Notes under the pieces: model-generated
What the model was told of the DNA's origin: nothing
Database searches by the model: none
Seen by the model: the letters and a program-made list of their open reading frames with translations, nothing else
Program-made: the position numbers and the translations under genes
NCBI GenBank assembly: GCA_028708865.1
Contig: JAQVYA010000001.1
Coordinates: 1-64,000, forward strand
Reading direction: 5' to 3'
DNA: 64,000 bases
Source: Desulfovibrio sp.
GTDB taxonomy: Bacteria; Desulfobacterota; Desulfovibrionia; Desulfovibrionales; Desulfovibrionaceae
Shown: positions 6,185 to 13,296 of the stretch, piece by piece
Layout: each line of letters opens with the position of its first letter
Position numbering within the stretch: the first letter of the stretch is position 1

Positions 6185-8083
6185 TCAACCCTGGTATACA
6201 AAGGCCAGGGCCGCCAGCGGCGGCAGGGTCAGGCGCAGGCTCGGACCGCCATTGTCAATGCGCGCCACAGCGCCGCCCCCGTTGCCCAGGTTGGAGCCGC
6301 CATAGTGCGAGGCGTCCGTGTTCAGGACTTCGGTCCAGCGCCCTTCCCGGGGGCAGGGCACGGCATAATCGTGCCGGGGAACAGGGGTGAAGTTGAAGGC
6401 CCAGAGCACGGGGGGCGCGTCCGGAGCCTTCCGCAGAAAGCTGATCACCGAGGCGTTGTGATCGGTGAAGTCCAGCCAGTCGAATCCGGCCCACTCATTG
6501 TCCTTCGCGTACATGGCAGGCTGTTCACGCAGCAGCCGGTTCAAGTCCCCCACCAGGTTGGAAATGCCCCGGTGCTGTGGGAAATCCAGCAGCATCCAGT
6601 CCAGCTCCTTGCCGGCATCCCATTCATTCCATTGTCCGAATTCTCCGCCCATGAAGAGCAGCTTTTTGCCTGGGTGCGCCCATTGGTAGGCCAGGAGCAT
6701 GCGCAGGTTGGCGAATTTTCTCCACGAATCTCCCGGCATTTTGGAGAGTAACGAGCGTTTGCCGTGCACCACCTCGTCATGGGACAGGGGGAGCAGAAAA
6801 TTTTCGCTGAAGGCGTAGAGCATGGAAAAAGTTAGATTTTGATGATGGTGGGGGCGGTGAATGGGATCTTTTTCAAAATACCGGAGGGTGTCGTTCATCC
6901 AGCCCATGTTCCACTTGAAGGTGAATCCGAGTCCGCCGGTATAGACCGGCCTGGATACTCCGGGCCATGAGGTGGATTCCTCGGCAATGACGCTGGCCCC
7001 GGGGAAATGGGCGTGTACCAGGGTGTTCAGGTTGCGGAGGAATTCGATGGCCTCGATGTTTTCGTTGCCGCCGTACTGGTTGGGCAGCCACTGGTTTTCA
7101 GCCCGGGAATAATCGCGGTAGAGCATGGAGGCCACGGCATCGATGCGCAGCCCGTCGATGTGGAATTCCTTGAACCAGTACAGGGCGTTGGTCAGCAGGA
7201 AGTTGGCCACTTCATACCGACCGAAGTTAAATATATAGGTCCCCCAGTCCGGGTGCTCGCCCAGGCGCGGGTCCTGGTGTTCATATAGGGCCGTACCGTC
7301 AAATCGTCCCAGGCTCCAGTCGTCTTTGGGGAAATGCGCCGGAACCCAGTCCAGGATCACGCCTAGCCCGGCCTGGTGGCAGCGGTCAATGAGGTCGCGG
7401 AGTTCATCCGGTGAGCCGAAGCGGGAAGAGGGCGCAAAGTAGTGCGAGGTCTGGTAGCCCCAGGATTCGTCCAGAGGGTGTTCGGCCAGGGGGAGAAATT
7501 CCAGATGCGTGAATCCAAGCCCCTTGGCATACGGGATCAACTGGTCGGCCAATTCGCCATAGGTGGAGAATCGCCCTTCGGGACGATGCCAGGAACCGGC
7601 GTGCACCTCATAGATGGATACGGGCTGTTCCAGCGGTAGTCCTTGTTTGCGCCGCGAGTCCATCCATTCCTGGTCCTTCCATTCATAGCCGTCCAGGGCC
7701 GAGGTTACGGCGGCGTTTCCAGGGCGGGATTCTGCGGCCAGGGCGTAGGGATCTGTCTTGAAGACCACACGGCCATTGCACTGGCGTACCGCGAATTTAT
7801 AGGAAACATTGCGGGCCAGTTCGGGGATGAATCCGGCCCAGATGCCCGAGGAACCCACCGGGTACAGGGCGTGGCGGTCCGGGGTCCATTCATTGAACGC
7901 GCCAATGACGCTGACGGCTTTGGCGTTGGGTGCCCAGACCGCAAAGCGGTAGCCGGTGGAGCCGTCCTGGCCGGTGGCCGGATGGGCGCCGAGGATGCGG
8001 TACAGATCCCAATGCTTCCCCTGGGCAAAGAGGTTCAGGTCAAAGGGATCGATGAATACGGGCTGAATGGTCGGTGCGGGCAT
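6185..8083 (-). CDS. glgB: 1,4-alpha-glucan branching enzyme
   Basis: FAVWAPNAKAVSVIGAFNEW, DWVPAHFPKDDWSLGRFDGTALYEH, GLRIDAVASMLYRDYSR, AEESTSWPGVSRP, LSHDEVVHGKRSLL (GH13 branching enzyme motifs). Start trimmed to Met 8083 with AGGAG upstream. Confidence 0.96.
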   Translation of the reverse strand: MPAPTIQPVFIDPFDLNLFAQGKHWDLYRILGAHPATGQDGSTGYRFAVWAPNAKAVSVIGAFNEWTPDRHALYPVGSSGIWAGFIPELARNVSYKFAVRQCNGRVVFKTDPYALAAESRPGNAAVTSALDGYEWKDQEWMDSRRKQGLPLEQPVSIYEVHAGSWHRPEGRFSTYGELADQLIPYAKGLGFTHLEFLPLAEHPLDESWGYQTSHYFAPSSRFGSPDELRDLIDRCHQAGLGVILDWVPAHFPKDDWSLGRFDGTALYEHQDPRLGEHPDWGTYIFNFGRYEVANFLLTNALYWFKEFHIDGLRIDAVASMLYRDYSRAENQWLPNQYGGNENIEAIEFLRNLNTLVHAHFPGASVIAEESTSWPGVSRPVYTGGLGFTFKWNMGWMNDTLRYFEKDPIHRPHHHQNLTFSMLYAFSENFLLPLSHDEVVHGKRSLLSKMPGDSWRKFANLRMLLAYQWAHPGKKLLFMGGEFGQWNEWDAGKELDWMLLDFPQHRGISNLVGDLNRLLREQPAMYAKDNEWAGFDWLDFTDHNASVISFLRKAPDAPPVLWAFNFTPVPRHDYAVPCPREGRWTEVLNTDASHYGGSNLGNGGGAVARIDNGGPSLRLTLPPLAALAFVYQG

Positions 8084-8287
8084 GGCTCCTCGTGCGGCTT
8101 GGTGTATCCCTTTGCGGAGTGAACGGATCGTTTTCCTGTGTGGCGCTGTGCCCGGACCGTGGGCCTGGTTTTCGAAGCGTACAGTCCAGCTGACGCCGTC
8201 CGGTGTCGGCACCGGGCGGCCGGTTCGGGTATCGCCTGCGCCCTGGCGGGCTGGCCCGCACGGCGCACTCCGGAAGAACGGCCCGGG

Positions 8288-8596
8288 TCAGGTGGTCACG
8301 ACGCAGTTGTCGCCCCCGGCAAACGCGCTGTATTCGTAGCGGTCAGCCTTGGTGTCGTTGAGCCAGACCCCTTCATCCGTAAGGTACCGGTACTGGTAAT
8401 CGCGGCCCACTTCCAGATCCACGGTGATCGAAAAGGAGCCGTCCTTGAGCTTTTTCATGGGCAGGGTCTTGGTGTTCCACTTGTTGAATTCGCCCACCAG
8501 GAAAATGTGTTTGGCGTTTTGTGTGGCGGACTTGGGCACTTTAAAGCCCACTTTGCATACGGGTTTGCTTTTCAGGTACTTTTTGGTCAGCGGCAT
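8288..8596 (-). CDS. Stand-alone CBM48 / isoamylase early-set (AMPK-beta-like) glycogen-binding protein
   Basis: [102 protein letters not shown]; the FLVGEFNxW...YQYRYL pattern is typical. Confidence 0.85.
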
Positions 8597-10157
8597 AGGC
8601 CACCTCCGCGCGTTCCCGGACTGGGCCGGGCAAGGGGTTGCTGTGTTCCGCGTCCGTCTGTCGGCTGGCCGCTCCAAGGCTGGTTGCGGTTGGTGCCAGC
8701 AGGGACGCATAAAGATCAAGATATTTTCTGGCGGCCAGATCCCAGGTAAAGGCTTGGGCCATGGCCCGTTTCATCATGGCCTGCCATTTTGCGGGGCGCT
8801 GCCAGAGTTCCAGGGCCTGATGCACGGCTTCCAGAAACTGCTCGGCTTCGGGCCGTGCAAAGGTGAACCCCGTGGCTCGCGGACTGGGATGCGGGACAAT
8901 GGTATCGATGAGCCCGCCAACGGCAGTGGCCACCGGCGGTGTGCCGAAGCGCAGGGCATACATCTGTGTCAGTCCGCAGGGTTCGTACCGGGACGGCATG
9001 AGGAAGATGTCGGACCCGGCATGAATGCGGTGGGCCAGGTCCTCGGAATATCCGATGGCGCCGCCCAGACGCCCAGGGTATTGCTCCACGAGCTCCTGGA
9101 GCCGGGCTTCGTACTCCAGGCTGCCTTCGCCCAGCACGATAACGCCCACTTCGTATTTCATCAACTCCGGCAAAATTTCATACAGCAGGTCGATGCCCTT
9201 TTGGCGGCGCAGGCGTCCGATGAAGCAGAGTACGGGACGGTCCTCCAATTGGTCGGCCATGTAGAATTCGCGGAGCAAGGCGCGTTTGCAGACGCGTTTG
9301 CCGTCCAGGGTTTCGGGCGTATAGGCGCAGGTCAGATAGCGATCATTGTTTGGGTCCCACACACCATAATCCGCGCCGTTGAGAATACCGTGCAGCTCTG
9401 GTCGGCGGACTTGAAGAATGCCCTCCAGGCCGCAGCCGAATGCCGGGGAGATGATTTCCCGCGCATAGGCCGGGCTCACGGTGGTCACGGCGTCGGCGTA
9501 AGCGATGCCTCCCTTGAGCATGTTGAAGTCACCGTAAAATTCCACGCCGTCCATGTGCCAGGCTTCGCCGGGCAGTCCGCAATTTTCGAACAGTCGGAAT
9601 GAGAACCGCCCTTGGAAAGCGAGATTGTGAATGGTCATGACCGAATGGGTCTGCTGCCAGAACGGGTCGCTGCGTCGTAAAAAGTGTAAAAATGCCGGGG
9701 CCAGCCCGCTCTGCCAGTCGTGGGCGTGGATGATGTGGGGGGCGGCGTCGAACTGGCGGCACCAGGAAAGCGCGGCGCGTACAAAAAAAGTGAACCGTTC
9801 GCAGTTGTCGAAGTAGTCCCCTTCATATGTATTATAATAGGCGCGGCGGTCAAAGTATTCTCCGCGGGCCACGAAATAGACATTCACGCCATGGTACGTG
9901 GTCTTGTAGATTTCCGCCGTGACCGGAGCCCAGGGATACCCTACCGGGCAGTCGGACTTGACCAGTCGGATTTCATGGCCGGCTGTCCGAAGGCGGCCGT
10001 AAAATGGCGTGATGACGGAGACATCGGCTCCCTGGTTCTGAAGGGCCACAGGCAGCGCGCCCATGACGTCGCCCAGTCCTCCGCTTTTGGAAAAGGGGAA
10101 CATTTCCGAAGTGAGCAGAACGACGCGCAGCTTTGACGACGCTGGTGCACTGTTCAT
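8541..10157 (-). CDS. glgA: Glycogen synthase (ADP-glucose type)
   Basis: [27 protein letters not shown] (KxGGL motif), [39 protein letters not shown]. Confidence 0.95.
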
Positions 10158-10627
10158 GCCTCTGCTCCGGGGGTAGACGGTTGTGGGGGCAGTAGCTCGG
10201 AAAAATCGGCAAGGATGCGGGCGTGGTCAAAGGCCAGTTCCGGCAGGGCATCGAGGGGCCAGATCCGCACGGCGGCGGCGTCGTCACCAGCATGCAGCCG
10301 GGCCGGGTCGTGGGCCTGGGCCGCGTAGACAACGCTCAAGGTGTGGTGCCGGGGGTCGCGGTCTGGGGCGGAATATACGCCCACCAGCCGAGTGAGGGTT
10401 ACGTCCAGCCCGGTTTCCTCGTGTGCCTCCCGGACGGCCGCCGCTTCGCAGCTTTCCCCATAATCCACAAATCCCCCGGGCAGAGCCCAACCCAAGGGCG
10501 GGTTGGCACGCTTCACAAGCACCACATTGCGCCCAGGCAGCAGGACGACCACGTCAACCGTTGGTAATGGGTTGCGATAGATTTCCACATCCTTTCCGCA
10601 ATGCGGGCAGGATCGAGACCGTTTCAT
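10154..10627 (-). CDS. NUDIX hydrolase with N-terminal zinc-ribbon-like CPHCG
   Basis: [26 protein letters not shown] is a Nudix box; stop codon overlaps glgA start (ATGA). Alternative start at 10660. Confidence 0.9.
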
Positions 10628-10693
10628 CAGAGAGCCCCCCAGGCATGGCTGCGGCGGCATTCCGGCAAGCCACCAAGCAGACGTTATGGCTTT

Positions 10694-10808: not shown

Positions 10809-11146
10809 TCATTCGGACGTTATGTCTGCAAAAGAAGGAAGAAGGATACTTTCTTTGTAGCAGTAAGCATGCCAACGTGTGAGATGAAAACCATCTTTTT
10901 TATAAACACTTGTTCTTTTAAAATTATTTATTAAGTGTCGACGTGGAAAAAATTTTTTTCATGTTGTGAAAAGAAAAAAAATTGTACTTCGAAGGCAGGG
11001 GAGAAGCGGTCTTTTTGCGGTTGTCACCAATGTAACATGTTTATTTTCAAGAGAAATAAAAATTTGAACGCCAAATCAGGACGGGTTCAAAAAATTTTAC
11101 TCCATACGCCGAGAGGACGACCTGGGAAAAGGGCTTCTGGCCGCGT

Positions 11147-12600
11147 TCAACAGTTGGGTTCCACCGGCAGGCAGACCGTAAAACAGGCGCCATGGCCTGG
11201 CTCGGTTTGCACTTGAACCCGGCCACGGTGGGCTTCCACGATTTTTTTTACAATGGCAAGGCCAAGGCCGGTGCTGACCTCTCCGGCAGTGGGCCGGTTG
11301 CTGAGTTTTTGGAAGGAAAGAAAGAGCTTGTCCTGTTCTTTGGCAGGAATGCCGGGGCCTTGGTCGCGTACGGAAAAACAAATGCCTCGTCTTCAGCCCA
11401 GAGTTCCACTGCCACGCAGGTGCCATGGGAGGAGAATTTGATGGCGTTGGTCAGCAGGTTGTCGATGACTTGCCCGATGCGCCTTCGGTCCACCATGCCT
11501 TCCACGGCCTGGTGGATGTCGACTTTGATGTCGATATTTTTTTCGTCCGCCAGGAGTCGGGCAATGTCCACGCGTTCCTGGACCAGGCTGGCCACGTTTT
11601 CGGGGCGGCAGAGCAGTTCCAGGCGGCCGCTTTCGATGACGGAAATGTCCAGAAGGTCGCTGACCAGGGCATTCATTTGCCAGCCGGAAATTTGTATGTA
11701 CTCAAGCATTTTTCGCTGGTTTTCGTCGAGCACGTCCTGAGCGGTTTGCAGCAGGATGGAAGAAAATCCGTTGACTGCGTTGATGGGGTTGCGCAGGTCG
11801 TGGGCGGCCATCCCCAAAAGGCGGTTTTTGAGTTCGTCCAGCTCCCGCAGTCGGCGCTGGCGTTCCATGGCGTCCACAAGTTGGAACATGCGGGCCTGGA
11901 ATTCCTCCCGTTCAAAGGGGGTGCGCAGGAAGTCGTTGGCCCCGTTCTTGATGAACCGCACCGAAAGCGGCTCATTGGCAAAGGCGGAAACCCCGATGAT
12001 TCCAAGGTCCTTGAGTTCGCTGCGGGTCCGTATCTTGACGGTCAGTTCCACGCCGTCCATGCCCTCGAGTTCGTAATCCACCACAGCCAGAAGATAGTCC
12101 GGGTCTTGCTCGAGTACTTCCAGGGCCTTTTCGCCGGATTCCACGGCCGTGACTTCCAACAGATGCAGGGAGAGCAGTTTGCTGAGGTAGCGGCGCATGG
12201 AGCGGGAATCGTCCACCACCAGGGCTTTGTGCCCCTGGATGCGGTGCAGTCTACCGATGGCTGCCACCAGATTGTCCACGGCGTGGCGGTTTTTGACCAC
12301 GTAGTCGGTTACGCTTTTGCTCAGGATGCGCCGACGCGTTTCTCGGGTGATGTCCGAAGTAAAGACCAGGCAAGGCAACTCGTGTTCCAGCACGGCGTCC
12401 ACCACGGTGCCGTCGTCCGAGTCCGGCAGGGCCAGATCGGCCACGGCAAGAAACCACTCGTTTTCTTTCAGGGCTTCACGGGCTTCGGCCAGGGTGCCCA
12501 CGGCGCGGGCGTTGAAGCACAGGTCGCGTTCGATGCGGCGCACCAGTTCCACCTGGACAGAGCGGCTGTCTTCAATGATCAGAATGTTGGGAACGGACAT
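11147..12600 (-). CDS. Hybrid sensor kinase REC-REC-HisKA-HATPase_c, interrupted by a frameshift near 11374-11378
   Basis: Two receiver domains (NILIIEDSRSVQ...; KALVVDDSRSMRRYL...VVDYELEGMDG), H box GMAAHDLRNPINAVNGF, N box VIDNLLTNAIKFS. Reading then breaks (ORF ends 11248), while the adjacent frame continues SVRDQGPGIPAKEQDKLFLSFQKLSNRPTAGEVSTGLGLAIVKKIVEAHRGRVQVQTEPGHGACFTVCLPVEPNC* to 11147. Confidence 0.85.
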
Positions 12601-12696
12601 ACAATCACCATGCCTCACAAAGGGAATGGCAGTGCGCCGTAACGGCACACTGTCGTATCGCATTTCCGGGGTTGCCGGATGGGGAAAGACCGCTTC

Positions 12697-13296
12697 TCAG
12701 GAAACGGCAAAACCTTTTTCTTCCAAGGATTGCCGGGCCACGGCTCCGGCACGCAAAATTTCAACGCGTCCGCCTGCCAAGGGACGGAGCAGAGTGGAGG
12801 GCGCTCCCCCAGGAGGGAAGGGCTCTTCCAACAAGGCCGCGTCGGTTTTGGCCAGCAGGTCCGGGTCCAGGTCCCGCGGGCTTCCCGCCGGCGGATTGCC
12901 GCTGAAGTTGGCGCTGGTGGCCACCAGGGGGGCGTCCAGCTCCCGGCAGATTTGCGCGGCCAGGGGGTGCGGCGTGGAACGCACCGAAACCAGGCCCTGT
13001 TCGTCGCGCACCGGACGAGGCACTGCGGAACGGGCCCGGACCAGAATGGACAGCGGACCCGGCCAAAATGCCTCGGCCAGGGCGCGAATGGTGCCGGTGA
13101 TTTCATCGGTGACCAGTTCCAGCATGGAGGTGCCCCCAATGATCAGCGGCAGAGGTTTGGCTTTGGGCCGGCCTTTGATGGCGGCCACCCGCAGGGCCGC
13201 ATCCCGCAAAAAGCCGTGACACCCCAAAGCATACAATGTTTCCGTGGGGTAAACCACAACTCCGCCTTCCAGGAAGATACGCTGTATGGTTTGCAT
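12697..13296 (-). CDS. L-threonylcarbamoyladenylate synthase (Sua5/YciO/YrdC family)
   Basis: GGVVVYPTETLYALGCHGF...KGRPKAKPLPLIIG...WPGPLSILVRA...APLVATSANFSGNPP. Confidence 0.92.
   Translation of the reverse strand: MQTIQRIFLEGGVVVYPTETLYALGCHGFLRDAALRVAAIKGRPKAKPLPLIIGGTSMLELVTDEITGTIRALAEAFWPGPLSILVRARSAVPRPVRDEQGLVSVRSTPHPLAAQICRELDAPLVATSANFSGNPPAGSPRDLDPDLLAKTDAALLEEPFPPGGAPSTLLRPLAGGRVEILRAGAVARQSLEEKGFAVS

Follow-up and report, generated by a model that had tools for sequence, protein, structure and literature searches.

In the HATPase_c fold of histidine kinases, ATP cannot be bound once the G1, F and G2 boxes are lost, and autophosphorylation fails as a consequence. Genes that are otherwise conserved can be parted by one indel, as in the frameshift pseudogenes, clusters and singletons among them, that were collected in the GeneTack survey (PMC3711429). 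A -1 shift is also found in programmed frameshift genes of the dnaX and IS3/IS911 type, with a Z_ZZN tetramer at the frame transition. In E. coli, such tetramers remain at background without a stimulator, a strong pseudoknot being needed; those prone to shift reach only 0.26–5.6% when the IS3 pseudoknot is present (PMC4066793). Selection against slippage-prone A/T runs is typically evident from nine bases (PMC1088944). Here we describe a histidine kinase gene of a Desulfovibrio sp. that is broken by one base at a T run, and which we regard, with a confidence a little above even, as an isolated, very recent and real null allele of a dispensable accessory kinase.

The window, that is, the whole stretch of 64,000 nucleotides analysed, is part of an 82.8-kb contig in a draft genome of 226 contigs and 3.13 Mb that is 89.5% complete. 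On its minus strand, the kinase gene encodes a REC-REC-HisKA-HATPase_c protein, whose single frame is broken at a T5 run at 11374–11378 (A5 on the plus strand, as read from the sequence 11000–12800). Upstream of the break, the two receiver domains, HisKA and the N-box third of HATPase_c lie in an intact frame at 11377–12600 (MSVPNILIIED...EDEAFV), as delimited by domain search. In the listed open reading frame (ORF, 11248–12663, minus), a non-homologous tail begins after ...WAEDEAFVF; frame 0 reads ...EDEAFVFPYATKAP..., and this aberrant tail at 11248–11373 (...PYATKAPAFLPKN...ALALPL) runs up to a TAA at 11248–11250. The -1 frame reads SVRDQGPGIPAKEQDKLFLSFQKLSNRPTAGEVSTGLGLAIVKKIVEAHRGRVQVQTEPGHGACFTVCLPVEPNC from the T5 run, and from 11374 it gives SVRDQGPGIPAKEQ...VEPNC followed by a TGA at 11147–11149. 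This segment (11147–11374) carries the rest of HATPase_c, including G1 (DQGPG), the F box and G2 (GLGLA).

By itself, the -1 frame segment matches positions 41–110 of Pfam HATPase_c at 8.6e-18, while the frame-0 product covers positions 2–36 only and falls under the Pfam cut-off; the congener protein contains the whole domain, positions 2–110, at 2e-29. HATPase_c is thus split at about position 36–41 of 111, which leaves frame 0 without the G1, F and G2 boxes. As the segment also shares 92% and 76% protein identity with its counterparts in two congeners, a chance origin of the -1 frame is excluded. The frame break with a C-terminus kept in the -1 frame, as well as the domain order, had been proposed in the initial annotation, and both are borne out by the sequence in both frames and by the Pfam domains found. 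The frame-0 end of the listed ORF likewise stands, but its start at 12663 does not: orthologues in both congeners align from an ATG at 12600 (MSVPNILIIEDS), and the extension to 12663 is unconserved, so the start was set to 12600. A split two-gene arrangement was considered and rejected, because a cut between the N and G1 boxes is no natural domain border and the orthologues are fused.

Two other genomes of the genus, G001 and G002, were used for comparison. In both, the kinase gene has the same neighbourhood as here: on one side lies a Sua5/YrdC gene, on the other a NUDIX gene with glgA and glgB-type genes beyond it. The adjoining glycogen-type cluster (6188–10660, minus) comprises a GlgB-like branching enzyme, a small CBM48/AMPK1_CBM protein (8291–8608), a glycogen synthase and the NUDIX protein, and is found at this place in both congeners too. 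The congener ORFs, of 489 and 487 codons, are intact, and over the first part their proteins are 84% and 80% identical to the one here. In four relatives at a greater distance (L007–L010), too, a single frame stays open at the break point, with DxGxGI. A single open frame with the H, N, G1, F and G2 boxes is therefore present in the orthologues and absent from the copy here. None of the six orthologues has a T run at the break site, the corresponding site reading TGCTTCTCC in G002 and TGCTTCCAG in G001. It had been suggested to check whether relatives end with the short ALALPL tail; their orthologues are full length, which leaves the frame-break reading unrefuted. Orthologues at E<=1e-60 occur in just 8 of 99 related genomes, the genome studied included, and the kinase gene is therefore accessory. 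When genome contigs were scanned with the intact N-terminal part, three distant kinases and nothing closer were found. The intact orthologues in both congeners and in L007–L010 support a recent null allele.

The age of the break can be estimated from the sequence beyond it. Over the 75 codons past the break, comparison with G002, the nearest congener, gives 3, 3 and 36 changes at codon positions 1, 2 and 3, respectively, corresponding to a dN of 0.042, a dS of 1.43 and a dN/dS of about 0.03, and confirming the earlier remark that no decay is visible there. The lineage-specific changes in this segment, polarised against G001, are 9 synonymous to 1 nonsynonymous. Judged from these substitutions, the segment is still under strong purifying selection, and because of this the break should be either very young or a consensus error, absent from the organism. 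Across the whole gene, the lineage here and that of the intact congener each show 13 lineage-specific nonsynonymous codon changes. Neutral evolution over the full branch would have produced about 169 here, which again argues for a young break. By our own estimate, with two standard deviations of the difference taken as the bound, the period without constraint spans at most about 6% of the branch. The lack of decay is no less compatible with a sequence error than with a young allele.

Such an error, in which a homopolymer base went missing from the consensus of a gene that is whole in the genome, is a serious contender that we rate somewhat short of even, since the genome is a fragmented draft, the break sits at a homopolymer and nothing past it has decayed. 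Against it stand the shortness of a 5-base run and the outcome of a screen for disrupted genes, in which about 200 orthologous genes (205 kb), sampled from the genome in stretches, were compared with G002. The sensitivity of the screen was about 67%, 131 of 195 implanted one-base deletions being recovered. The kinase gene was the one convincing disruption, and no further disrupted gene among the orthologues screened was convincing. Moreover, longer A/T runs, of which the window holds 53 of 6 or more, broke no other gene found by the screen. Twelve other two-frame hits were set aside: the four that might have been genuine (L038, L036, L056 and L045) were resolved by DNA alignment as gene boundaries, DNA between genes or non-coding frames that overlap, and the remainder were read, by inspection only, as ORFs extended at the N terminus or as antisense shadows of conserved genes. 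In the reverse direction, G000 ORFs screened on G002 DNA gave six raw hits. Within the window, comparison with both congeners revealed no second break of this kind, other two-frame rows being judged by inspection. As the screen found no other disrupted gene, an assembly generally prone to homopolymer indels is unlikely; of the homopolymer error first proposed, only the single-site form keeps its weight. In the one genome of the species analysed, a single consensus error would look identical to a real mutation, and the strain-level null allele is favoured slightly over it.

Programmed recoding and phase variation are both unlikely, because the site has only a tetramer, no structure, no conservation and a short run. 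Ribosomal -1 frameshifting on the T run, which would yield full-length kinase from part of translation, was raised in the initial annotation and now seems very improbable. GTT TTT CCG does hold U_UUU in the right phase for VFS-VRDQ, the segment past it evolves under purifying selection, and GAGG occurs a few bases ahead of it, although the last is a weak point. The slippery heptamer X_XXZ_ZZN is, however, absent at the site, which reads T_GTT_TTT and offers the U_UUU tetramer only, and lone tetramers are at background in E. coli (PMC4066793). In-frame U_UUU is commonplace, with 329 occurrences in 141 of the 207 genes sampled, and folding of the RNA past the site is no stronger than that of shuffled sequences (z 1.27, -0.12 and 0.30; pseudoknots are outside the fold model). 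In addition, the frame transition is unconserved, as both congeners and the other four orthologues stay in one frame, without a T run. A lineage-specific variant, in which low-level -1 frameshifting at U_UUU tolerates the indel and gives mostly a receiver-receiver-HisKA protein that lacks the ATPase, with a little full-length kinase, is given equally little credence.

A phase-variable switch or transcriptional slippage, the former also anticipated earlier, has in its favour the homopolymer located right at the frame change. Yet the run is five T, vs the nine-base level for A/T runs (PMC1088944), so that no long homopolymer (about 8–9 or more) is present at the frame change; the tract is absent in orthologues, and A7 and A8 runs elsewhere in the kinase gene would be likelier switch sites. 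The probability of this explanation is accordingly very small. The initial view that the break is very recent, artefactual or bypassed was thus right overall, with bypass since made unlikely.

In the favoured explanation, a recent null allele, one base would have been lost very recently at the T run in a dispensable cytoplasmic REC-REC-HisKA-HATPase_c kinase, the loss being genuine to the strain or population. From what is known of the family, translation would stop after the short missense tail, giving a product that retains the receivers, the phospho-acceptor histidine and the N box. Without the G1, F and G2 boxes, this product would be expected not to bind ATP and hence not to autophosphorylate. 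Two receivers and the HisKA dimerisation helix could remain in the truncated protein; that it keeps some function as a phosphate sink or dimer partner is speculative.

The second receiver domain differs as well. Residue 227 is threonine here (TPF; codon ACC at 11920–11922, minus) and the conserved receiver lysine (KPF) in all six orthologues examined. With AAG in G002 and ACC here, K227T took at least two base changes and so cannot stem from one slip in sequencing. The substitution, specific to this lineage, fits an eased constraint on the gene in the lineage studied and hints that the second receiver may have been already atypical there; it could be an adaptive or a neutral change.

For annotation, the kinase gene here is best flagged as frame-disrupted, left out of counts of active kinases and given a start at 12600. 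Whether mutation or error is responsible decides only whether the strain lost one accessory two-component kinase, and little importance extends beyond annotation. The phenomenon, an isolated recent one-base disruption, real or a single error, is ordinary.

Compared with cytoplasmic REC-REC-HisKA-HATPase_c histidine kinases (PF00072, PF00512 and PF02518), the domain order and motifs are alike, whereas HATPase_c here spans two frames and the second receiver lacks the conserved lysine; nearest by sequence are PDB 3luf for the receivers and the sensor histidine kinases 4jas/2c2a/3dge for the kinase core. With programmed -1 frameshift genes of the dnaX and IS3/IS911 type, the locus shares the Z_ZZN tetramer at the transition and the -1 shift, but not the heptamer, downstream structure or conservation. 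It is in frameshift pseudogenes that one indel likewise parts an otherwise conserved gene and is unconserved in orthologues; beside them, the break described here is unusually young, with no further decay, and has nothing distinctive.
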